Source: Sphaerolaimus hirsutus (taxonomy: Eukaryota > Nematoda > Chromadorea > Monhysterida > Sphaerolaimidae). From it: a stretch of DNA of 64,000 nucleotides. The position numbers were made by a program, and so were the translations under genes. The stretch lies in the NCBI GenBank assembly GCA_964036195.1, contig OZ038459.1, forward strand, positions 20,829,206 to 20,893,205, given 5' to 3'. Below are positions 502-61,199 of this stretch, in pieces. Within the stretch, counting starts at the first letter, position 1. The number at the start of each line of letters is the position of its first letter. The notes under the pieces were generated by a model. The model ran no database searches. It was not told where the DNA came from and saw only the letters and a program-made list of their open reading frames with translations.

Positions 502-626
502 TTTTATGTCACTGGTGGGGGGGGGGGTGTTTGTGTATATGTGAAAAGATTGAGTAGGAGTGAACTTATGCAAGAGCGGGAGTGTCACAACCTTGAAATT
601 AGTCCAAAATTGAAAAGCCGCCATTG

Positions 627-1199
627 TCAAGTCACCTTGGGGTCGGTTGGCACCGGTGCACGGGTCCCTCGAGTGCGAAGGTTGCTCGGCGCTGTCGCCG
701 GGTGTGGGGTTGGTGTGCATGGGCGCCGGCGTGGGCTGGGACAACTTTCACAACTGGTTTTTCTTTTGCATCGCTTTCGGATCCGCCTTGGGGAGAAATG
801 TGGGTGTATTGTTATGCGGACGTCCGGAAGTTCAGCAATTCTTAACATTTTCAGAACTAGTTTGTCCCGACCCTCCCGTACCTTGGCTTTCACCCGCCCG
901 TCCTCGATGAGGTCCGAGTATTTGCACTCGAATTCGCCAGCGTAGAGCACCTCGAGGGGTTTGGAGTCACAGGGGGCGTCAATGGGAGCACTGCCAATTT
1001 TGGGGCCCTTGACCATGAAAAAACGGTGGGTCTCGATGGAGAGGGTCGCGAAAAAGGCTAGACTTTTGCAGCTAGATTCTTCCAGGATTTCAGTTTTGGT
1101 TTTATCTTTTTGGAGTTGAATTCTGCCGTCTCCGACAAATTTCAATTTAGGGGCATTGGGCAAAAGAATCTCGGCCGTGGTGCACGTGGCGAATTTGGT
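627..1199 (-). pseudogene. Retroelement ORF1 exon 3, frameshifted copy
   Basis: Minus-strand exon after a polypyrimidine-AG acceptor (GT of the codon at 1198-1199). It encodes the same protein as 57379-58002: the stretch from TKFATCTTAE through KLKFVGDGRIQLQ and AGEFECKYS is collinear, with scattered substitutions. Near 740-800 the frame shifts relative to the intact copy. The tail becomes Arg/Pro-rich and ends at a different stop (627). Function is unknown in both copies. Strong conservation up to the shift suggests it was coding until recently. Confidence 0.6.
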
Positions 1200-1468
1200 C
1201 TGGGGGGGGGGTTTGTAAGTGTGGAGGAAAAAGTGATAGGGTGGTGTGGCTTAGTGTATGTGAAAGTTTACAGTGAGGGTGTTTAATTGAATAGAAGGCG
1301 ATGTATATCGATTGAACATGGTAGTTTTGTGGTTTTAAAGTTTTAAAGTTGACAAAATGTCTGTAAAGTTGACAAAAGGTGCATGCAAGGTAGGTAAACC
1401 TCCCCGGATGGCGTGTTTGTCCGCACAGAAACCCAAAGAAAAGTATAAAAAACCCATCTGAAGCCAAC

Positions 1469-1702
1469 CACCATGACCCCACCGCGGAAGTCCACGGTGT
1501 CCAGTTCGCGCACGCAGATGTGGTCGCTGCCGAGGCCTATGCTGCTGGCCATCAGGTTGCGAACGATTTTCTTGATGTCTTGTTTGCTGGTCGTGCGCGG
1601 GTCGATGCCGTGGTTCTTCCAGATGACGTTGTAGCGGTTGAGCTGGTTGCAGATTCGCAGCTTGATGGCAGCGGCGTTGGATTCAATGGTGGGTGCCTCG
1701 GG
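1469..1702 (-). pseudogene. Retroelement ORF1 exon 2 (degraded copy, frame open)
   Basis: Open from acceptor (CTCAG before CCCGAGGC) to donor (GTG before GTTGGC), 234 nt, 78 codons, phase 0 on both sides. It differs from the intact copy at 58286-58516 by one extra codon (Arg after KL) and a few substitutions; blocks such as NQLNRYNVIWKNHGIDP and DTVDFRGGVMV are identical. The exon itself is intact. I call it pseudogene only because the downstream exon is frameshifted and the element lacks ORF2. Confidence 0.6.
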
Positions 1703-2357
1703 CTGAGTGGGTTTGGGGTATCTTTTTGTAGAGTGGGATATTTGTGTAGGTGAGAGTTTATACCTTGTGCTTGTGGGGTTCGCTGTGCATGGCAGGGACC
1801 TGAACCTGGTGTGCCAACACGTGTTGCGAACCAAAGTACTAATTCGGTCAAAATTTTGTAAGTTGCATCTGCTGAACCCGTACGGCGAATAGCAGATCAA
1901 CAAACTGACCTAATCGGCAGAGCCCAGTATACCGACACTAAAGCTCTGCTGTCATAGGATTTTTGCGATTTGAGTAGTGTCTCTAATTAGGGTGTGAAGG
2001 TTTTTGTAGACTACACTGTATATACAGTGCCGAGAGAGCACTAGCTACTGTACATTGACAGTGATGTCATTTTAAGGTTTTTATTTTTCAAATGCTGGTG
2101 GGCGAGCTTTTAGCGCCTGGTCGTAAAATCCCCGAAAGTGAAGTATTTCTAGGTAAATAGTTAGAATGACCAGCACCTCTCACCGGTTTAAGCGTTTACC
2201 AGCTTAAATCGAACACTGAATTTATTGGTGTATCCAAAAGTTGTCTATTACACAAAAAAGAAATGTTTGAGCACTTGTAAAGACTAAGTACTTTATTTGT
2301 GGCGAGCACATGTACACAAATTCTCTTTACCAACTCAGAGAGTCGGCCTAAAATTAC

Positions 2358-2489
2358 CTCAACTCCGGTGGCGAAGCCCTTGGGCTTCTTAGCCGCCGGT
2401 GCGTCGTCTTGCGAGCTGTGGCTGGCCGGTTTCTTCTGCTGGTTCTGCTGGCGGCCGTTGCGGCTGTTGAAGCGAGCGGGCGGCGCCAT
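2358..2489 (-). pseudogene. Retroelement ORF1 exon 1 (degraded copy, frame open)
   Basis: Starts at ATG (2487-2489) with MAPPARFN and ends at a GAG/GTAATT donor, 44 codons, phase 0, exactly as in the intact copy. It is rich in Gln, Asn and Ala and has a basic AAKKPKGF patch. Upstream on the minus strand is a TATA box about 76 bases away, which fits a short 5' leader. The exon is intact, but it belongs to an element with a broken exon 3. Confidence 0.55.
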
Positions 2490-2564
2490 GTCGAGAAATG
2501 AGCTAAGTTCCCTTGAACTTTCGATGTGAAGTCGGGTCGAATGAAAATTGGATGGCATTGGGCC

Positions 2565-2573
2565 CTATTTATA
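2565..2573 (-). promoter_or_regulatory. TATA box in LTR-like repeat
   Basis: Minus-strand TATAAATAG, at the same place as TATAAAAAG in the two repeats of the intact element. The conserved position upstream of the ORF1 ATG supports a Pol II promoter inside the repeat. Confidence 0.55.
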
Positions 2574-3182
2574 TTTTTGGCACTGCGTTGTTTAATCGCT
2601 TTTTTCCGTCATTACAGCACAACAGGCGGCGGCTGAACCTTTTATCTGATGGCGCATGGATTTGGCTACGCAATTATGGATTAGTGCAGCGCTGAATTAC
2701 GCATGCGTCGTGGGTTTGGGTGGATTTTGTTTGATTTCTTTGTTTATTATGACGCGTGTGTGTGGCGTGTTTGTAATTTGGGTGATATCCGTAGGGGATC
2801 GGGAGATAATGCTATGCGTACCGGGTGGCATATTTTGAAAATTCGGGGGATTTTTTTGATTTTGAGTGGGTGTACGGAAATGAGTGTTTTTGGGGCCCCC
2901 GATTTGTATGCTGTATGCGTTTTAGTTTTCAAATTTTCAAATTTCAACTTTCATTAATTCAAATTCAAAAATTAATTCATTCAACCATGTTAATTAATTT
3001 GCATTTTAAAAAATTTCAGTTTTCACACAAAGTTACGGTGAAAACTAGTGTGTGTGTGTGTGTAGGCACATTGTTGAAAAAATACTACCTAATGTTTTTT
3101 TTAAATCTTTGGAAAACAAACATCCAACATTTATCGCTAGGATGTAAACAGTGAAAAGTCTTTGCTATCAACCGAGACACAT

Positions 3183-51170: not shown

Positions 51171-51918
51171 ACTGGGAGGGAGGTCAAAAAACTTTTGGCG
51201 AAATAATAAAACGCCCCTCGAAATACCCCCTCAAACTTTGCACTATGAAAAATAAACCCTCTGGGGGTATTTCGAGGAAATACAGTAGTTCAGTTCTACG
51301 ATTTTGTGGTNNNNNNNNNNNNNNNNNNNNNNNNNNNNNNNNNNNNNNNNNNNNNNNNNNNNNNNNNNNNNNNNNNNNNNNNNNNNNNNNNNNNNNNNNN
51401 NNNNNNNNNNNNNNNNNNNNNNNNNNNNNNNNNNNNNNNNNNNNNNNNNNNNNNNNNNNNNNNNNNNNNNNNNNNNNNNNNNNNNNNNNNNNNNNNNNNN
51501 NNNNNNNNNNTACACTGTTCTAACGTGACACCGACATTGTTTTAACGTTTTTTCTGCAGTACACTGAACACAAACTACAGTTATTGTCATGTACGTTCCC
51601 TTTACACTCAATTTGGGGGGGGGTTTTCGAGGGGGGGGGGTGATTGTTTCATAGTGGTCTCGAGAGGGGGGGGTCAATCGAGGGGGGGGGGGGGTATTTC
51701 AAGGGGGGGGGTATTTCGAGGAAATACGGTAAACAGTAATATAAATCATGTACATTGCATACATGACGTATTTATTATGTACATGACGTACATCATTCCG
51801 AAGGGGGGGGGGGTATTTCGAGGGGGGGGGGGTTTATTATTTCCCCAGCCCATTTTGAGGGGGGTTAATTCGAGGGGTGGGTTAATTCAAGGGGGGGATA
51901 ATTCGAGGTAATACGGTA
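51171..51918. repeat. Cluster of TACCGTATT-family fragments around the gap
   Basis: Three partial copies: one ending AATACAGTA at 51288, one right half ending at 51732 and one at 51735-51918, with very long G-runs. The G-runs and repeats probably caused the assembly gap. Confidence 0.6.
51311..51510. other. Assembly gap (200 N)
   Basis: Exactly 200 unknown bases, a conventional scaffold-gap size, so the true length is not known. Confidence 0.95.
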
Positions 51919-52200
51919 TGTACGTTTATTCAGATGGGATATGGTTGATTTCATTGTTAGGTGTAATGCCGCTGCAGTATACACATTATCACTGGTAGTA
52001 GTTTTCATTGGTTTTGTGGCAGTTTTAACCATAGCTGGCAAAAGTTATTTATGTTTGTACTCAAAATGATATGCGTACTCACTCACGTACTACATAAATA
52101 CATTTACCTTTCCTCCAGAAAAAAATACCAGTACTCATTTACTTGTGTACTTTTTAAAAATACGCGAGTACAGAAAATGTATATATTTTAAGTTTTTTGT

Positions 52201-52412
52201 ATTTCAAATCCTGGTGGGCGAGCTTTTAGCGCCTGGCCGTAGGATTTCCGTAAATAGAGTAGAACAGAAAAAGTTTGAGTGACCAGCACCTCGCACCGGT
52301 TTTTGTATTTCAAATGCTGGTGGGCGAGCTTTTAGCGCCTGGCCGTAGGATTTCCGTAAATAGAGTAGAACAGAAAAAGTTTGAGTGACCAGCACCTCGC
52401 ACCGGTTTAAGC
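52201..52412 (-). repeat. 106-bp tandem duplication in 3' repeat
   Basis: Two units with period 106. Each can pair TGCTGGT with ACCAGCA across about 80 bases, with a GGC-(GA)-GC...GC-GCC hairpin inside. No hammerhead core (CTGANGA ... GAAA) is present on either strand. Confidence 0.75.
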
Positions 52413-52783
52413 GTTTACCAGCTTAAATCTGTTTTCCGAAAATTCGTATGTATCCAAAACTTGTCTAATGAGAAAAAGGAAAATTTCAGAAGTGGAGTAC
52501 AGACTATGTACTTGACAAATATTGCGAGCACATAAGCACAAATTCTCTGTACCAACTCAGACCCTTCTAACAAAATTACCTCAATGCCGTTGGCGAAGCG
52601 CTTGGGCTTCTTGGCGGCCGGGGCGTCGTCTTGCGAGCCGTTCGGAGCCGATTTCTTCTGCTGGTTCTGCTGCCGGCCGTTGCGGTTGTTGAAACGTGCG
52701 GGCGGCGCCATGTCGTGAAATGAGCTAAGTTCCCTTGAACTTTTCGAAGCGATGTCGAATGGAGGAAGTAGTGACATGGGGCG

Positions 52784-52792
52784 CTTTTTATA
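52784..52792 (-). promoter_or_regulatory. TATA box, 3' repeat
   Basis: Minus-strand TATAAAAAG, same place as in the 5' repeat. Here it would drive transcription out into the flank toward 52 kb. Confidence 0.55.
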
Positions 52793-53113
52793 CGTTTCTA
52801 CACTGCGTTTTTTAATAGTTTTTATCTTTTCCGTTGCAGCACAACAGGCGGCGGCTGAGCCCTTTTATCTGATTGAGTGCGATTTGGCTACGCTGAGCGG
52901 GATTAGTGCAGCGTAGCGTTTCGCGTGAGATTAGGTTGGCTTTGTTTGATGGGTTTTTTGATAGTGGTGCGTGTGTGGGGTCGATTTATTAGTGTGGGTC
53001 ATTTCCGTTGTGTGTATAAAAATTGCTATGCGTACCAGGTGGTATATTTTGAAATTCGGGGGTAAAATAAATGAAGATTGTGTGGGTGTTGTGGCCCCCG
53101 ATTTCCGGTATGC

Positions 53114-56041
53114 TTAGCTGTAAGAATTTTTGCATTGGGTGTCGGCCCACTTGCAGATTGTGTAGCTGCTACACATTTTGTGTTTGGTCATTAAGTTGGG
53201 GTAATTTGTGGCGAGTTTGAGTAGTGTTGAGCACATTTTTTCAATGTTGAAATCCATTGAGATTAGGTTTTTCATTAAATTAATTATGCGAGTGTTGGCA
53301 TCGTTAATGTCGGTGCATATTTCGAGGAATCTTTTGGCTTGTGAGTACAGGGTGGCATAACCTAGGTTTGGTGACACATTGCTAGAAATGTGTGTATTTT
53401 TTACGATGCTGAAATCATAGTCATCCGTTTTATTCCACAGGTTGAACGATGGGCGGTGGTCCATGACCGTGACATCCAGATCCAGGAAGTGGACCTTGTG
53501 GCCGTCTTCACTGTTGTCTGGTTTGAGAGTAAGTTCAGATCCGTAGATTTCCGGGTATATGTCAAGGAAGTCTGGTTTATTGATGACAAGTATGTCATCA
53601 ACATATCTTTTTGTTCTGTGGAGTGTGCGTGCCTTTATTGTGTTGGTTTTTATGCCTAAGTACCTGTATTCCATACCAGCTAGTGTCAAATTGGCAATGT
53701 CGCTAGATGCACTGCCACCCATAGGTATTCCTAGTTTTTGTTGGTATAATGTGCCGGCAAATTTTATGTAAGTGTTTTCTAGGACGATTTTAAGTAGATT
53801 AGATGTTTGTGGCACTGTTAATACTTTGCCAGGCCGGTTTGAAGTGTTTTGGGTGGCATTTCTGCTGTTTATGCGGATGCTGTTGTTTTTTATTACCATG
53901 TCTAGTATGAAATTTATATGCGTTTGTATTAGATGGTGTGGAAGTGTTGTGAACATGTTTGCAAAGTCATACGTATGTATTGAGTGAATTTTTTTCTGTA
54001 GTTGTAGGCTTTTTACTACTTTGATGCTGTTTTTACAAAGCCAGTATCTGTTGGTGCCGTTTCTTTTTGTTATGACGTTGCAGAATTGTTCTAGTCGGAC
54101 GTTTAGATATTGTAGGATTTTGTGTAGATCCCATGCCATGCTGTTTATGTTAGACCTTTTGCTTCCAGCTATGAAGCGAAATTTGATTGGGTTTTTGTGG
54201 AATTTTGGTGTGGCGTAGATGACCGGGAAGGTTGAATCGAAACGGTCCATTTCTCCTGAATGTTCGGTAGTCAGTTTCAGAAGTTTTTCTGATATTTCTG
54301 GCCCGTGTTCCGTTTCTTTGCCTATGTAGTTGTACGTGACATTGCCACTATTTGTAAAGTCTCCGTTGGCTATCCCTAGTTCTTTTGCTATTGTTTCAAC
54401 GTAGAATTTCTTGCACATGAATGCAAATGTTGAAGCCGCTTTATCTATTGGTGTAATCACATACTTTTGCTGAAGCTGTTTTAGCTTCAGCATAAGACTG
54501 TGTTGGTCTGGTGGTTTTGTGCTGAGTGTTTGGGCGTGTTTGATTTTTTTATTTGTTAGTGCAATAGCGTTCGTGTACCACTGTGATATTTCATTTGTTA
54601 GCTCAGGGTGTTTTTGTTCTAAGTGTTGTTTTATTTCAAGTAGGCAGTGGTGTGTTTTTTTGCGGGTTTCGATTTTGTTTGGTGCATTGGGTAGCCGGTA
54701 ATTAGCTCCATAGCTTAATACTTTTGCTAGTTCGTTGTCTTTACATATTTCTAGGTCTCCTGTTATTACATGTTGATGGTGATTGTTCCTAAATTTATTT
54801 TCAGCGCAGTTGCATGTGCTGTTTATTATTTGTAGGAAATTTTCTGGTGTCATATCCTTTAGCACTTTATTGTAGTTGAAAGCGGTCACTCCGAAAGGGG
54901 TGTCGTATGTAGTGGAAATTAGAATATCGTTTAGGCTTTGTTTGAGTGGTTCAGGGGCGTGTTTCAATGTAGCTTGAGTTTTTAGGCTTTTATTTAGGCC
55001 ATTGTGAGCGTCTGCAGGATTGTAATAGTGATACGTGAAAATTTTGGGATGTTTTGGTTTTTGATGATGTTTCTGTGCTTGCTGTCGTTTGGCAGCTAGC
55101 ATGGCAGTGTATTTTTTGTACGTGTCCCAGCTTATTTCACGTGTCTCCATTTTCGTGTTTATTTCATTGATGGCCGCTTCTGTGAATTTTTGCCGATGAT
55201 TTAGGCATTTTTGGTAGATTTGGTAGTTTGTGTCGTTGTTTTTAGGGGATAATTCTTTGTATGCCCGGGATTGCCGCTTAGTTTTTTTCTTGCGTGTGCC
55301 CTTTCTTGGCAGTGTGAAATTTAGGAAGGGTAGTCTTGATTTTTCATTTGCTAAGTCGATGTCTGTTATGTTACCCACCCCTTTGATGATTGTATTACCC
55401 CCTAGAGGGTATGATGTCATTAGTGCGTTTATGTATTGTATCTCACACTCTGCGAATTGTTGTGGTTTAATTTTTCCAATTTTTTCGGTTGTTATTTGTT
55501 CTAGGATATCGAATTGGACCTGCTTTATATCACATTTGTGTTCATGGAAGTGTCGATAGAAGTGTGTGTCAACTTTGTTTTTCCCGGATAATGCTTTTTT
55601 AATGTGCCCCATGTGTTGCGAGAAGCGTGTTTTTGCTTTTTGCTTTGTTTCACCTATGTACTGCATGTTGCAGCTGCCACATGTGAGCATGTAGATTACG
55701 TTACAGCTTTCGCATCCCAGGTTCTGGTGATGTGCAAATTGCACTCCTGTGGTTTGTGAGGTGTATGTGCGACTCGTGCTGAGGTGCGTGCATGACAGGC
55801 ACCTGTTTACCATGCACTTAGTGTGTATCGCACCACTTGTTTTTTCGACGTTGGTCACTGACAGTCCGCTGCCCGTGTGCAGCTTCCAAATGTGTTCACT
55901 GGACCTGGTAGACCTTATGAGGTCTGTTGGGTTGTTGTGATTTAGCTTTGGTCTATAAGCAACGTTCATGCTTTGCAGTTTAGCATCGGTTACCCCGGAT
56001 GCGGTAGCATGAGTCTGGTTGCGTGTATAGTCAAAGTTCAT
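53114..56041 (-). CDS. ORF2: GIY-YIG endonuclease / reverse transcriptase (Naiad-type Penelope-like)
   Basis: 975 codons, uninterrupted, ATG in a good context (CCACCATGA). Residues 76-124 hold a cysteine cluster (C76, C81, C84, C110, C113, C121, C124). The GIY-YIG nuclease core follows at about 115-131 (VIYMLTC, MQYIGET), with Arg139 and His143 in TRFSQHM, a HFYRHFHEHKC zinc-type motif near 160-170 and acidic AECE at 197-200. A basic linker with a nuclear-localisation-like KKKTKR follows (251-256). The reverse transcriptase spans about 525-860: DKAASTFAFMCKKFYV, PKFHKNPIKFRFIAGS (612-627), YDFANMFTTLP with Asp692, GIPMGGSASSDIANL (771-785), RYVDD (812-816) and HFLDLDV (851-857). The product nicks DNA and primes reverse transcription of the element RNA. 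All catalytic positions I can check are present. No in-frame TGA, so no selenocysteine, unlike some Naiad relatives. Confidence 0.9.
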   Translation of the reverse strand: MNFDYTRNQTHATASGVTDAKLQSMNVAYRPKLNHNNPTDLIRSTRSSEHIWKLHTGSGLSVTNVEKTSGAIHTKCMVNRCLSCTHLSTSRTYTSQTTGVQFAHHQNLGCESCNVIYMLTCGSCNMQYIGETKQKAKTRFSQHMGHIKKALSGKNKVDTHFYRHFHEHKCDIKQVQFDILEQITTEKIGKIKPQQFAECEIQYINALMTSYPLGGNTIIKGVGNITDIDLANEKSRLPFLNFTLPRKGTRKKKTKRQSRAYKELSPKNNDTNYQIYQKCLNHRQKFTEAAINEINTKMETREISWDTYKKYTAMLAAKRQQAQKHHQKPKHPKIFTYHYYNPADAHNGLNKSLKTQATLKHAPEPLKQSLNDILISTTYDTPFGVTAFNYNKVLKDMTPENFLQIINSTCNCAENKFRNNHHQHVITGDLEICKDNELAKVLSYGANYRLPNAPNKIETRKKTHHCLLEIKQHLEQKHPELTNEISQWYTNAIALTNKKIKHAQTLSTKPPDQHSLMLKLKQLQQKYVITPIDKAASTFAFMCKKFYVETIAKELGIANGDFTNSGNVTYNYIGKETEHGPEISEKLLKLTTEHSGEMDRFDSTFPVIYATPKFHKNPIKFRFIAGSKRSNINSMAWDLHKILQYLNVRLEQFCNVITKRNGTNRYWLCKNSIKVVKSLQLQKKIHSIHTYDFANMFTTLPHHLIQTHINFILDMVIKNNSIRINSRNATQNTSNRPGKVLTVPQTSNLLKIVLENTYIKFAGTLYQQKLGIPMGGSASSDIANLTLAGMEYRYLGIKTNTIKARTLHRTKRYVDDILVINKPDFLDIYPEIYGSELTLKPDNSEDGHKVHFLDLDVTVMDHRPSFNLWNKTDDYDFSIVKNTHISSNVSPNLGYATLYSQAKRFLEICTDINDANTRIINLMKNLISMDFNIEKMCSTLLKLATNYPNLMTKHKMCSSYTICKWADTQCKNSYS

Positions 56042-56263
56042 GGTGGGTAGGGGTTTTTTGTTTGCATGCCATTTAGGTACATCGGCTTTGCCACTGTTTG
56101 GAGAATTTTTTTTATGTTTTTTGTCGCAGATGCCATGAAAAGAATGGTGCTGTATGTTATAAGCCCGTGGTCAGTCGGGCGTGGTATCGAATAGTCGAAA
56201 CCTCTAGTATTTTATTTGAAACGAATCTGTTTATGTTTTTGAAAATAGTGCAAAAAGCGCCAT

Positions 56264-56314
56264 CGCTGTGCATACGCCATGGCGCGGGATTGAACCCGTG
56301 GCGTATAACCAGCG
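56264..56314 (-). other. Strong nested RNA hairpin between ORF1 and ORF2
   Basis: Minus-strand 51 nt fold: CGCTG/CAGCG outside, an 8-bp ATACGCCA/TGGCGTAT stem, then CGGG/CCCG closing a TTCAAT loop. The loop looks like a tRNA T-arm, but no full tRNA can be folded. Role unknown. Confidence 0.5.
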
Positions 56315-56560
56315 TGTCGATATCTGTCGCGCGCCTTTAAGAGATAGCATTGGTTATTTGTGTCTTATCTGTCGATTGGCTAGTGTGCGCGTCTTTTTGA
56401 GTAGTGATGGGAAAAATACCCGGATAGTCGTTTTAGTAGAAAAAGTCAGCTCAGCCAAGCTTTTTCTACATTATAGGACTACTAGCGAAAACAGCGGGGG
56501 TTTTCAGAAGACTCTGTAAAGCTATTAAAGGTTTTGGTCATCATCGCCGACTATTTGTAG

Positions 56561-56606
56561 AGGAACTCCCCCACCCCGTAGTGCTAACCACTACGCAATA
56601 GTTCCT
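56561..56606 (-). other. Second nested hairpin between ORF1 and ORF2
   Basis: Minus strand: outer AGGAACT/AGTTCCT stem around a GTAGTG/CACTAC stem with loop GTTAG, followed by a G-rich stretch. The inner part resembles a tRNA D-arm, but the rest of a tRNA is absent. Confidence 0.45.
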
Positions 56607-57378
56607 GCACTCGAATTGTCATCTAAAATCATCCATATTGTGTGAAGCTAGTCGCGTGGCCTGATTTTTGTGTGAAAGTGAGTAGGAATGCTGTGCAACG
56701 CACTGCTCTTATCAGTGTAGCCTGCGGTTGCTTGTGTACCATATCGACCGAATAAGTCTATATATGTGTGTGCGAATCTGATGGGATGAGTGTAGTGTTT
56801 ATGTTCGGGTGATTATGGTAAAGTAGGCGGATGTGGCTACTTTATTTTTATGCCGATACGAAAGAGATTTTTTTGTCGAGGATGTTTTGAGCCAATTTTG
56901 TTGCTGAACGAGGAGGATTGGTGTCAATATGTATTGTATGAAAGTTTTGTAGAATTTTTTGCTCTATCTTTTGATGTGTGTTTTTATATAATACATAGTT
57001 GTGTGACGAGAGTTGTCGAATTGTCATTTTTATGTGCGTGGCAATAGAGTGTATGTAGTGCAAGAGTAACCATTAGCTAGTTAGTGTGACGCAAAAAATG
57101 TACATTACTGTGAGGAATAATCAAGTGGTAAAGTTGCGATCGAAAAAATTGGGCGTGGGAACAAAACAATCAGTCTTTTTACAGGAATGCCGGGTTATCA
57201 CTTAGTCGCTTTGTAGGTGCCGGCCCTCGTTGTTTCCGGATGCGAATCGGCCCGCCGCTTGCTTTTGTTGCGTCCCCGAACCGTCTGCCACGATCCGCCA
57301 GTGGGGGGAGAGGTTTCTGAGGTGAGGGGGGGCGAAAAATGTGTATATGGTGATGTAGTTGTGTCAGTAAGAGCGGGG
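56607..57378 (-). other. Spacer between ORF1 stop and ORF2, no ORF
   Basis: With the hairpin region it makes up 1.3 kb between the ORF1 stop and the ORF2 start. No supported reading frame. How ORF2 is translated (second transcript, splicing or internal initiation) is not visible. Confidence 0.5.
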
Positions 57379-58002
57379 CTAGAGCATCACAACCTTGAAA
57401 TTAGTCCAAAATTGAAAAGCGGCCAGGGCTAAGTCACCTTGGGGTCGCTGGGCACGCTGGGCACAGAAGGCCGCTCCGCGCTGTCGCCGGGCAGGGGATC
57501 GGTGCACATCGGCGTCGGCGGGGGGTTGGACAGTTTTCGGAGTTGATTTTTCTTCTGCATCGCTTTCGGATTGGCCTTGGGGGGATATATGTGTGGTTTG
57601 ATTTGGATAGATTGTAATGCGCATATCCGGAAGCTCAGCGATTTTTATCATTTTCAGAACCAAACTGTCACGCCCCACCCGTACCTTCGCCTTCACCCGA
57701 CCATCCTCGATGAGTTCCGAGTATTTGCACTCGAACTCGCCGGCGTATAGCACCTCGAGGGGTTTGGAGTCGCGAGGGGCGTCGATGGGGGCACTGCCAA
57801 TTTTTGGGCCCTTGACCATAAAAAAGCGGTGGGTTTCACTGGAGAGGGTCGCGAAAAAGGCCAGGCTTTTGCAGCTGGACTCTTCCAGGATTTCGGTTTT
57901 GGTTTTGTCTTTTTGGAGTTGAATTCTACCGTCTCCGACAAATTTCAGTTTGGGGGCATTGGACAGTAAAATTTCGGCGGTGGTGCATGTGGCGAATTTT
58001 GT
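57379..58002 (-). CDS. Retroelement ORF1, exon 3 (terminal)
   Basis: 624 nt from acceptor ATCCCAG/ACA to TAG (57379-57381), 207 residues. Begins TKFATCTTAEILL, contains NAPKLKFVGDGRIQLQ, THRFFMVKGPKIGSAP and AGEFECKYSELIEDG, and ends in a Pro/Arg/Gln-rich tail with FQFWTNFKVVML. The middle could be a beta-rich domain. I do not recognise the family. Residue blocks are conserved in the older copy at 627-1199. Confidence 0.65.
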   Translation of the reverse strand, partial: TKFATCTTAEILLSNAPKLKFVGDGRIQLQKDKTKTEILEESSCKSLAFFATLSSETHRFFMVKGPKIGSAPIDAPRDSKPLEVLYAGEFECKYSELIEDGRVKAKVRVGRDSLVLKMIKIAELPDMRITIYPNQTTHISPQGQSESDAEEKSTPKTVQPPADADVHRSPARRQRGAAFCAQRAQRPQGDLALAAFQFWTNFKVVML

Positions 58003-59422
58003 CTGGGATGGGGAGGGGAGGGGGTGATGATTTTGGTGAATAAAAAAGGTGTGGTGAGAGCTTAATAGGTGATGTATACAGCGTGACTGTAAGTTTTGTA
58101 GTAGGTGTATTGTGAAATAATTAGTTTTTGAACACAAGTTTGAACATGAAAGTTTACAAAAAGTGTGGAATTAGCGAAAAAGAAGTGAAAAAATGTGCAC
58201 GCCGGGTACGGTTATCTCTCGTTAAGACAATTTTTTTATCAACATAGGAACATCCGAAAAAAATGTAGAGGGTGTCCGAACCAACCACCATGACCCCACC
58301 GCGGAAATCCACGGTGTCCAACTCGCGCACGCAGATGTGGTCGCTCCCGAGGCCCATGCTGCCGGCCATCAGGTTGCGGACGATTTTCTTGATGTCTTGC
58401 TTGCTGGTGGTGCGCGGGTCGATGCCGTGGTTCTTCCAGATGACGTTGTAGCGGTTGAGCTGGTTGCAGATCAGTTTGATCGCCGCGGCATTGGACTCAA
58501 TGGTGGGAGCCTCGGGCTGGTTGGGTGGGGGGTGAAAAAAATTTTGCATGGTTTTTTAGTGGTGAGTAACGAGAGAAGGGCGTACCCTATGCTTGCAAGG
58601 TTCGCTGTGCTTGGCAGGGACCTGAACCTGGTGTGCCAGCACGTGTATAGCGAACCGAAAGTACAAAGTTAATCCAAAGTTTTGTAATTTGCATCTGCTG
58701 AACCCGTACGGCGAATAGCAGACCAAAAAACCGACCTAATCGGCAGAGCCCAGCATACCTTCACTAAAGCTCTGCTGTCATAGGATTTTTGTCGATTTAG
58801 TATGTAACCAAAGTAAAGAACTGACTGAGTATTTAGACTGCACTGTATATACAGCGCCGAGAGAGCACTAGCTGCTGTACATTGACAGTGATGTCATTTT
58901 AATTTTTTTGTATTTCAAATGCTGGTGGGCGAGCTTTTAGCGCCTGGCCGTAGGATTTCCGTAAATAGAGTAGAACAGAAAAAGTTTGAGTGACCAGCAC
59001 CTCGCACCGGTTTTTGTATTTCAAATGCTGGTGGGCGAGCTTTTAGCGCCTGGCCGTAGGATTTCCGTAAATAGAGTAGAACAGAAAAAGTTTGAGTGAC
59101 CAGCACCTCGCACCGGTTTAAGCGTTTACCAGCTTAAATCTGTTTTCCGAAAATTCGTATGTATCCAAAACTTGTCTAATGAGAAAAAGGAAAATTTCAG
59201 AAGTGGAGTACAGACTATGTACTTGACAAATATTGCGAGCACATAAGCACAAATTCTCTGTACCAACTCAGACCCTTCTAACAAAATTACCTCGACGCCA
59301 TTGGCGAAGCGCTTGGGCTTCTTGGCGGCCGGGGCGTCGTCTTGCGAGCCGTTCGGAGCCAATTTCTTCTGCTGGTTCTGCTGCCGGCCGTTGCGGTTGT
59401 TGAAACGTGCGGGCGGCGCCAT
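57379..59422 (-). CDS. Retroelement ORF1, spliced, about 328 residues, unknown function
   Basis: Three exons join in phase 0: 59291-59422, 58286-58516, 57379-58002. Exon 1 lies wholly inside the LTR-like repeat, so the first intron crosses the repeat boundary. The protein has a polar N-terminus with a basic AAKKPKRF patch (possible nuclear signal or RNA contact), an exon-2 region of mixed helix-like sequence (NQLNRYNVIWKNHGIDP), and a longer exon-3 domain. A nucleic-acid-binding or gag-like role is only a guess from its place upstream of ORF2. The older copy at 530-2905 keeps the same exon layout, which supports the model. Confidence 0.65.
58286..58516 (-). CDS. Retroelement ORF1, exon 2
   Basis: 231 nt, 77 codons, phase 0 to 0. 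Acceptor after a pyrimidine run (CCCACCCAACCAG/CCC), donor GTG/GTTGGT; ATG/GTGGTT three bases earlier is equally in phase. Encodes PEAPTIESNAAAIKLICNQL onward, to DTVDFRGGVMV. Confidence 0.65.
59291..59422 (-). CDS. Retroelement ORF1, exon 1 (inside LTR-like repeat)
   Basis: ATG at 59420-59422 (context GACATGG), 44 codons, donor GAG/GTAATT. An earlier in-frame ATG (59486-59488) is only 7 bp from the TATA box and would lie upstream of the expected transcription start, so I prefer the later one. Gln/Asn/Ala-rich with AAKKPKRF. Confidence 0.65.
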
Positions 59423-59494
59423 GTCGTGAAATGAGCTAAGTTCCCTTGAACTTTTCGAAGCGATGTCGAATGGAGGAAGTAGTGACATGGGGCG

Positions 59495-59503
59495 CTTTTT
59501 ATA
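59495..59503 (-). promoter_or_regulatory. TATA box of the retroelement
   Basis: Minus-strand TATAAAAAG about 73 bases upstream of the ORF1 ATG. Conserved in position in all three repeat copies of the window. Confidence 0.6.
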
Positions 59504-59947
59504 CGTTTCTACACTGCGTTTTTTAATCGTTTTTATCTTTTCCGTTGCAGCACAACAGGCGGCGGCTGAGCCCTTTTATCTGATCGAGTGCGATTTGGCT
59601 ACGCTGAGCGGGATTAGTGCAGTGTAGCGTTTCGCGTGAGATTAGGTTGGCTTTGTTTGATGGGTTTTTTGATAGTGGTGCGTGTGTGGGGTCGATTTAT
59701 TAGTGTGGGTCATTTCCGTTGTGTGTATAAAAATTGCTATGCATACCGGGTGGTATATTTAAAAATTCGGGGGTAAAATAAATGAGAGGGTTGATAGATT
59801 GTGTGGGTGTTGTGGCCCCCGATTTCCATTTTTATTTTACACTTTTTTAAATACCAGTATTATTATAACAACTCTGATTTATGCATTCTACCATGAAATA
59901 ATAAGCTGTGATATGCTCCTGTAGTATGAAATATCCAACCAATGTAT

Positions 59948-61139
59948 TAGGTTGTAAACTAATAAAGTGTCTTTTTTGCCATCTCATACAAATATACATT
60001 TGTGCTTTCCATTCTTTTGTACATCAGCCGATTTTGATGCCATTCGAGTATGTTGGGGTTTCGGGTCTGGGCTATGAAGAAGTGTTTTTGATTGCTCAAA
60101 TAATCCCCCAGTCCCGAGATAAGAGGGGTCTATAAAAAGGTGGTCATTTTACACGGCCAATATGCACATTGACTTTGAAGCTTAATAACTCAGCCATTTC
60201 TGGGCCGATTCGGATCGTTCAAAACTTAAAATAATCAGGACAACCTGCAGATTCAATTTTTGTAGTCAAATGTATCTTAATTCCGTATGCCGATTCGACC
60301 CGCTTTTTGAACGTGAAAAATAATCGTAATTATATTTTTTCAAGACGTGTTTTTTGAAGGTGCTATCATATACTATAGACAAAAAGAATGAATCTGGCTC
60401 AAAAATTATTTCAATATCTCTCTCCGGTCCAAAGTTATATCACTTCAAACATTCGCCTCCCAACAATAAATAGAAAAATCTGCATGATGAGCAATGCATG
60501 TAACTTCAGAAATACATATCTCGGCCATTTCTCAGCCGATTTCCACCAATGAGCACTCAAAATGATCAGAAAAACCTGAAAGTTTCATTTTTATGCTCAG
60601 GTTATCTGTATTCATCGTTATTGATAAGTTATTCACATGTATGTGAGGCGGAAGTTTAAAGTTCTATTACTTTTGATTGGAAAGAGATATATAAATAATT
60701 TTGTTAGTATACGAATCCCTATTGGCTAAAGTATATAATAGGATGTTCAGAAAAAAAAATTTTTTTGTGTTTAAAAACTGGGTCAAATCGGCATACGGAA
60801 TTTAGACATCACTAATCCGACCACAAAAATGGAATCTACAGGTTGTACCGATCATTTTAAGTGTTGGACGATCCAAATTGGCCCAGAAATAGCTGAGTTA
60901 TTAAGCTTCAAATTCAATGTGCATATTGGCCACGTACAATGACCACCTTTTTATAGACCCCCCTTATCTCGGGACTGGGGGATTATTCGAGCGAACAAAA
61001 ACATTTCTTCATAGCCCAGACCCCAAACCCCAACATACTCAAATGGCATCAAAATCGGTTGACGTACAACATAATGTGGGATGCACGAATTTATATTTGT
61101 GTGAAATCGAAAAAAGACACTTTATTAGTTTACAACCTA
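59948..61139. mobile_element. 1.2-kb foldback element
   Basis: Ends TAGGTTGTAAACTAATAAAG and complement. The arms (about 59948-60330 and 60765-61139) are inverted copies, including AATAATCCCCCAGTCCCGAG and AAGCTTAATAACTCAGCCA-type blocks. No ORF; apparent frames are open only by chance. Confidence 0.8.
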
Positions 61140-61199
61140 ATACTTACACATGTAAACTTTATTGTTTTTCTTGTATATTGTTTTTCTATTGTTCAGCCG

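Follow-up and report, generated by a model that had tools for sequence, protein, structure and literature searches.

This study revealed that a window of 64,000 nucleotides from the nematode Sphaerolaimus hirsutus (assembly GCA_964036195.1, contig OZ038459.1, positions 20,829,206 to 20,893,205) carries on its minus strand what is probably a nearly complete Penelope-like retroelement, comprising two protein genes, ORF1 and ORF2 (ORF, open reading frame), and a structured RNA region. ORF1 comprises four exons and is under purifying selection with conserved splice sites at intron 2, and ORF1 and ORF2 descend together within one genome family. The case for ORF1 is strong. The original prediction, made from this DNA without database searches, had proposed a conserved second protein whose first exon lies in the flanking repeat, and this is strongly supported by the copies, the splice sites, the ratios of nonsynonymous to synonymous substitution (dN/dS) and the correlation of distances. 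The frame with a GIY-YIG endonuclease and a reverse transcriptase (RT), the repeats and the exons had also been recognised correctly; exon 4, a second copy in the window and the RNA module had been overlooked. Relative to described Penelope-like elements, the spliced ORF1 and a module resembling a small nucleolar RNA (snoRNA) may be new. No such element appeared among the articles listed in searches of open-licence literature, which lacks most subscription journals; this speaks only weakly for novelty.

Structure and conservation of ORF1

The features of ORF1 are as follows.
59291..59488, minus strand: exon 1, with its likely start ATG at 59422 (homologues in other copies)
58286..58516, minus strand: exon 2, 77 codons (93.5% identity to the second copy; 17 copies with a GT/AG intron 2)
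57438..58002, minus strand: exon 3, 565 nt (at least 37 genomic matches; dN/dS; structure model)
57394..57437, minus strand: conserved block behind the exon 3 donor, a possible alternative end of exon 3 (present in 8 aligned copies)
57198..57316, minus strand: exon 4, encoding a basic C terminus, newly found (22 of 27 copies; in frame)

The three exons described originally were all correct, and their junctions (59291/58516 and 58286/58002) join in phase as had been proposed. The gene, however, has four exons in total, the last at 57316-57198, and a further intron in a divergent branch. With exon 4 included, spliced ORF1 encodes a protein of 370 residues. The C terminus encoded by exon 4, WQTVRGRNKSKRR...K-stop, was matched in 22 of the 27 copies in which the ORF2 start was read, and no match was present in L018, L022, L023, L037 and L038. 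As a mere 15 nt separate the TATAAAA at 59503 from the first in-frame ATG downstream (59488), the second in-frame ATG at 59422 (MAPP..) is the likelier start.

Genome-wide searches covered 348 Mb in 762 contigs, and all copy counts are lower bounds. They returned at least 48 scored matches to ORF2, including the element itself and split fragments, the others being 50-96% identical to it, and at least 37 matches to exon 3, one of which is weak (E 1e-7, with internal stops) and overlaps another. Exon 3 was found upstream and on the same strand in 29 of the 34 listed ORF2 matches that retain the N terminus; the locus L012/L040 is counted among these 29, yet is cut within exon 3. Conversely, 32 of the 37 exon 3 matches adjoin a listed ORF2 and five do not. 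The ORF2 matches with an N terminus and no exon 3 are L018, L022, L023, L028 and C7:24030031, the first four of which were inspected. Going upstream from ORF2, element homology is lost after about 430 nt in L018, 450 nt in L022 and 160 nt in L023, and L028 retains exon 4. Since three of these five copies are 5'-truncated and one still carries exon 4, the copies lacking ORF1 that had been named as evidence against the proposal did not appear among those inspected.

Intron 2 is bounded by GT...AG in all 17 copies that have exons 2 and 3, with lengths of 197-446 nt; the other three of the 20 sequences searched are L042 (neither exon), L040 (a piece of exon 3) and L046 (exon 3 only). Between the two copies in the window, exon 2 is 93.5% and exon 3 is 83.5% identical, against 51.5% for intron 2, and exon 4 is unrecognisable in the second copy (2849-572). 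The contrast between exon 2 and intron 2 in these two copies is more than chance. For exons 2 and 3 together, dN/dS was 0.044-0.226 in 24 of 35 listed pairs, the remaining 11 being saturated, and the coding constraint on the ORF1 exons is thus strong, the absence of constraint that would have spoken against them not having been observed. Among 13 copies, ORF1 and ORF2 distances are closely correlated (Mantel r = 0.924, reached in 0 of 5000 permutations) and the two trees agree on the main groups; the branching of ORF1 differs from that of ORF2 within one group of close copies, where it is weakly supported.

The 44-nt block behind the exon 3 donor reads GDLxxAAFxFWxxFK in several copies. The reading frame of the exon 3 tail switches among copies, which may reflect an alternative end or decayed copies. 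In the divergent branch comprising L047, L048, L055 and L056, the exon 3 match ends after codon 107, where a GT is present in at least L047 and L056; we read this as an extra intron within exon 3, gained or lost in a retroelement gene.

In the structure model of exon 3, residues 33-101 weakly match the C-terminal domain (CTD) of LINE-1 ORF1p, which was the top-ranked structure match with 61 of 65 residues aligned. The modelled likeness of the ORF1 protein (ORF1p) to LINE-1 ORF1p is weak. Sequence searches of ORF1 gave no match to LINE-1 ORF1p, and the Pfam model Transposase_22 (LINE-1 ORF1) matched neither ORF1 nor the controls, and is therefore uninformative. Judging the strand order by eye, a candidate RNA recognition motif would span the junction of exons 2 and 3.

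Further sites between ORF1 and ORF2 were considered. The TTTTCAACAG stretch before ORF2, the flanking letters of which form a hairpin, was rejected as a splice acceptor because the AG is missing in copies with an intact ORF2 (e.g. L012, L013 and L016). Fusion of ORF1 to ORF2 by splicing was also rejected: the window copy offers a single acceptor-like site, at which no suitable phase was found, and ORF2 begins with an ATG of its own. A hairpin of the form GTTTTC-n-GAAAAC lies about 60 nt upstream of ORF2 in several of the copies L012-L032 and is not obvious in the window copy; it shows a compensatory change in L012 and is conserved in a further alignment.

ORF2: endonuclease and reverse transcriptase

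53114..56041, minus strand: ORF2, with a GIY-YIG domain, a CxC linker (residues 410 and 412) and a reverse transcriptase (Pfam and motifs found by eye)

ORF2 is a single ATG-started frame of 975 codons (56041-53114) in which, as originally proposed, GIY-YIG is N-terminal to the RT. Pfam places GIY-YIG at residues 114-168 (E 1.2e-4, just over the cut-off), and RT motifs identified by eye follow downstream at about residues 692-816, around DFANMFTTLP, GIPMGGSASSDIANL and YVDD, stretches which we take to be motifs A, B' and C. Of the 30 ORF2 loci, 15 entered the protein alignment. The key residues of the RT motifs are invariant in all 15 copies, and GIY-YIG was matched by Pfam in 13; RVT_1 was matched in only one (E 0.0019). 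The sole GIY-YIG match is N-terminal, so that the C-terminal placement named as a refuting outcome did not appear. Searches of PDB sequences with ORF2 found no relative, one of them giving a single unrelated match at E 0.029 and the second none at E<=1.

C410 and C412, located between the endonuclease (EN) and the RT, are invariant in all 15 copies. A CxC motif at this place is part of the definition of the group with an N-terminal EN, which also has an insertion in the RT fingers (IFD). C121, C124, H143 and H164 are invariant across the same copies and may represent the CCHH residues of the endonuclease; such residues are a trait of Naiad and not of Chlamys elements. Integrase, protease and RNase H gave no Pfam match in the 15 ORF2 proteins (E<=1) or in eight ORF1 cores (E<=10). 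No relatives were found in viral contigs scanned with ORF2 and exon 3, a scan that reaches close relatives only.

Direct repeats and repeat-end hairpin

58896..59827, minus strand: 5' direct repeat (pseudo-long terminal repeat, pseudo-LTR) with TATAAAA at 59503 and exon 1 (repeat alignment)
52185..53106, minus strand: 3' direct repeat (pseudo-LTR) (repeat alignment)
52316..52400, minus strand: conserved hairpin at the 3' end of the repeat, with a second tandem copy at 52210-52294 (alignment, pair counts)

The two near-identical direct repeats with a TATA box, already noticed in the original prediction, share 97.5% identity over 932 aligned positions (59827-58896 and 53106-52185), and each contains a tandem 106-nt doublet. 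Their ends read GCGAGGTGCTGGTCA...TGACCAGGCGATAAAAGCTCGCC or similar forms. Three of the eight copies compared show no difference between their two repeats, over 828, 866 and 839 nt, and the family has therefore moved recently. The 5' repeat is shortened to 114 and 213 nt in two of the eight copies, and none was found in a third. Pseudo-LTRs and 5'-truncated copies are a Penelope-like trait that is present here, and truncation, which can reach into the 5' repeat itself, is consistent with copying primed at the target and with the arrangement of pseudo-LTRs known for Penelope elements, as described in the consulted parts of PMC11167929 and PMC3846280. No clear target-site duplication could be discerned by eye, either at the window copy or at the other copies whose repeats were compared; L048/L037 is one possible case. 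Rfam gave no hammerhead ribozyme match in 51500-60500 of the window (E<=5) or in L014, L025 and L036 (E<=2), although minimal forms could escape.

With regard to the repeat-end hairpin, 96.3% of the cells are paired in 20 copies, compared with 21-45% when the pairing is slid; the alignment includes neither L037/L038, which escaped the pattern, nor the second tandem copy in the window. One of its two helices is invariant and thus offers no proof of pairing. The other helix has two pairs altered on both sides; of 500 shuffles, 159 have at least as many, and one attains its covariation score.

The RNA module

56441..56611, minus strand: RNA module, with a 5' A-box-like hairpin domain and a box C/D snoRNA-like domain (alignment, pair counts, motif scan)
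56538..56552, minus strand: terminal stem AGTCGGC and C box GATGATGA (C box in 20 of 20 rows)
56506..56523, minus strand: stretch complementary to a putative 28S rRNA segment, with the D' box CTGA (56507-56504) at its end
56444..56454, minus strand: D box CTGA, present in all 20 rows, with the terminal stem GCTGACT and a T run behind it
56286..56296, minus strand: motif GGTTCAATCCC resembling a B box of RNA polymerase III (Pol III), with a T5 run at 56256-56252 (pattern in 23 of 24 copies)

Alignments showed a conserved RNA module within the 1.1 kb separating exon 4 from ORF2. It is carried by 23 of the 24 copies that reach that far; L018, L022 and L023 are truncated, and L036 has only D-box-like and B-box-like parts. 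Box C/D RNAs have a C box (RUGAUGA), a D box (CUGA) and an adjoining terminal stem, and the C box, D box, 7-bp stem and following T run are hallmarks of these RNAs. On comparison of the copies, the predicted C/D module is well supported as a conserved structure. The exact C box occurs in 22 of 27 start-complete ORF2 copies, L015 having one letter changed before the core ATGATGA, and both ATGATGA and the D box CTGA are present in all 20 aligned rows, which were picked for carrying the module. Three further carriers of the module are not in this alignment: L029, with 12 nt deleted from its 5' hairpin domain, and the nearly or fully duplicate copies L017 and L020.

In the module stem and the base of the 5' hairpin, 98.4% of the cells are paired, compared with 35-61% when slid. 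The C/D terminal stem taken separately is 97.1% paired, with one compensatory pair, and is shorter in L037 and L038. The covariation score of the module lies above that of all 500 shuffles. Four of its pairs show changes in both partners, and 21 of the 500 shuffles have at least as many. A C box and a D box with an adjoining stem of at least 6 pairs were found in 15 of 16 copies (not in L037) compared with 1 of 3200 dinucleotide shuffles, in a scan written after the motif had been seen. The module model R1, of which the window copy is a part, scores that copy at 136.7 bits, and Rfam gave only sub-threshold C/D matches at the module (window E 4.7; L014 E 0.03 and 1.6).

An A-box-like motif precedes the C/D domain in 17 of 20 copies, the exceptions being the window copy, L010 and L011, which form their own group. 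Downstream, 23 of 24 copies have a B-box-like motif, by a loose definition, and all 24 a T5 run; no control was run for these A-box-like, B-box-like and T5 motifs. The letters before the D' box are complementary to what we take to be a eukaryotic 28S segment, which does not come from the host rRNA and was chosen after the match had been seen. The match to it comprises 19 identities in 21 columns in L012, with one gap and one mismatch (0 of 20000 shuffles), and 15 of 18 in the window copy (55 of 20000); others match over 9-10 straight nt (89-179 of 20000 in those tested). A match of at least 9 nt is present in 18 of 20 copies and in neither L037 nor L038. The putative 28S stretch was not found in viral contigs scanned for it.

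Other copies and surroundings

572..2849, minus strand: second related copy, 5' part (repeat, exons 1-3) (alignment to the window element)

This second copy (2849-572) is 77% identical to the main element. Its ORF2 lies outside the window (C15:20822543-20826937) as two split matches with stops, and the copy looks older. At C2:12436205-12445633, two neighbouring copies in the same orientation lie about 6.5 kb apart with near-equal scores, as in tandem Penelope arrays. Adjoining the element at 59944-61143 is a pair of perfect 34-nt inverted repeats, separated by 1.13 kb in which more inverted arms lie, which looks like a foldback or miniature inverted-repeat transposable element (MITE)-type insertion. 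Just outside the 3' repeat, a 200-base N gap (51311-51510) stands beside G-rich imperfect repeats (51613-51904). An open stretch at 36972-37307 on the minus strand reads, by eye, like what we presume to be part of a C-type lectin domain.

Possible mechanism and alternative explanations

Transcription would begin at the TATA box of the upstream repeat. Spliced RNA would yield ORF1p, possibly an RNA-binding partner resembling LINE-1 ORF1p, and unspliced RNA would serve both as template and as ORF2 message. The GIY-YIG domain of the ORF2 protein (ORF2p) may cleave target DNA, after which ORF2p could copy the RNA in place from the 3' hairpin of the repeat, often halting early and leaving 5'-truncated copies. 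By analogy with telomerase RNA, the C/D module might recruit the host proteins of C/D snoRNPs (RNP, ribonucleoprotein), so that the RNA would be stabilised or sent to the nucleolus. Because intron 2 is retained in all 17 copies, copying has probably used an unspliced or an antisense RNA; a template of either kind is discussed for Penelope elements in the section of PMC3846280 that we consulted.

Some observations do not favour our interpretation. The number of pair types in the module is reached by 499 of 500 shuffles, and its folding energy is ordinary (z -2.4 to +1.0). In addition, exon 1 is not singled out by conservation, being 82% identical between the two window copies compared with 74-80% in the two parts of intron 1, the inner of which stands at 80%.

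The module could instead be a structured leader, for instance a regulatory region or a site of internal ribosome entry, which would serve translation of ORF2 from a bicistronic RNA without binding snoRNPs. Its position on the sense strand upstream of the ORF2 ATG in the copies read would suit such a role, as would the conservation of the entire stretch of about 600 nt within a single subfamily group with ten members, where column identity averages 78%, but C and D boxes in 20 of 20 rows, a 7-bp stem and a T run are features of C/D RNAs, and A-box-like and downstream B-box-like motifs are widespread too; we regard a leader as somewhat unlikely. That the module is a captured tRNA-like or snoRNA host sequence, a SINE-like passenger with no role for the element, appears quite unlikely. 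The A-box-like, B-box-like and T-run motifs do resemble a Pol III gene, and complementarity to the putative 28S segment would suit a former guide, but the module is kept with compensatory changes among copies whose ORF2 is about 50-96% identical to that of the window.

The near-identical direct repeats with a TATA box and the spliced gene are also what an LTR retrotransposon or retrovirus-like element with a spliced subgenomic RNA would show. GIY-YIG beside RT motifs, the lack of Pfam matches to integrase, protease and RNase H, and 5' truncation even within the 5' repeat make this extremely improbable. It is only slightly less improbable that ORF1 belongs to the host and was captured and transduced between the repeats: intron-containing host genes can be carried by Penelope elements according to the part of PMC3846280 at hand, but exon 1 lies inside the repeat itself, the ORF1 and ORF2 distances agree (r 0.92) and nearly all exon 3 matches adjoin a listed ORF2 (32 of 37).

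A Penelope-like element with two genes and a structured RNA region thus remains our preferred interpretation. Whether it forms a telomerase-like RNP in miniature, in which an RT related to that of telomerase is joined with an RNA bearing a C/D snoRNP-assembly domain, as the trypanosome telomerase RNA has, and an internal Pol III-like promoter and with a LINE-1-type ORF1p, is a speculative and on balance unlikely extension. If true, features of telomerase, of LINEs and of snoRNAs would be united in a Penelope lineage. Penelope elements and telomerase have a common ancestry, and little is understood of how these elements move. A recently active family offers testable parts, namely a second protein, persistent introns, a snoRNA-like module and a repeat-end hairpin, and raises the questions of which RNA is copied, spliced or not, and where synthesis begins. 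It also raises the question of whether snoRNP assembly, known for telomerase RNA, is possibly older or more widespread than telomerase.

Comparison with known systems

Craig et al. 2021 reportedly described the Naiad/Chlamys Penelope-like elements, which have an N-terminal GIY-YIG. The present element resembles them in the GIY-YIG that precedes the RT, the CxC linker and the pseudo-LTRs, and no hammerhead match was found in the regions searched. It differs from them in its second, spliced ORF1 and its C/D-like RNA module; Naiads are not known to have an ORF1. LINE-1 likewise has a separate first gene, and the CTD of its ORF1p is weakly matched by the structure model of exon 3, but ORF1 here is spliced and has no sequence match to it. 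Another group, the EN-deficient Penelope-like elements, bears the name Athena.

According to the portion of PMC6431247 consulted, Penelope elements have either one ORF with RT and endonuclease or two ORFs without an endonuclease. The original remark that ORF1 is not a standard part of the architecture agrees with the single ORF given there for EN-bearing elements. The single ORF of canonical EN-bearing Penelope elements is not what was found here, a conserved ORF1 being present. Canonical EN-bearing Penelope/Poseidon elements share with ours the pseudo-LTRs and a GIY-YIG together with a telomerase-like RT, whereas theirs is one ORF with a C-terminal GIY-YIG and a hammerhead motif (PMC11167929 and PMC3846280, in the sections consulted). 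EN-deficient Terminon elements also have two or more ORFs within a Penelope-like element, but are without an RT-linked endonuclease and are situated at telomeres (PMC6431247, same portion). The extra ORFs of EN-deficient elements include coiled-coil and esterase proteins (PMC6431247, likewise), and PMC3905857, in the excerpt available to us, reports that some Penelope-like elements carry an esterase. Finally, the Trypanosoma brucei telomerase RNA (TER) bears C and D box hallmarks (PMC5855555, in the part consulted). The predicted module has the C box, D box and terminal stem in common with box C/D snoRNAs and with this telomerase RNA, from both of which it differs in lying within a mobile element, beside an RT gene.

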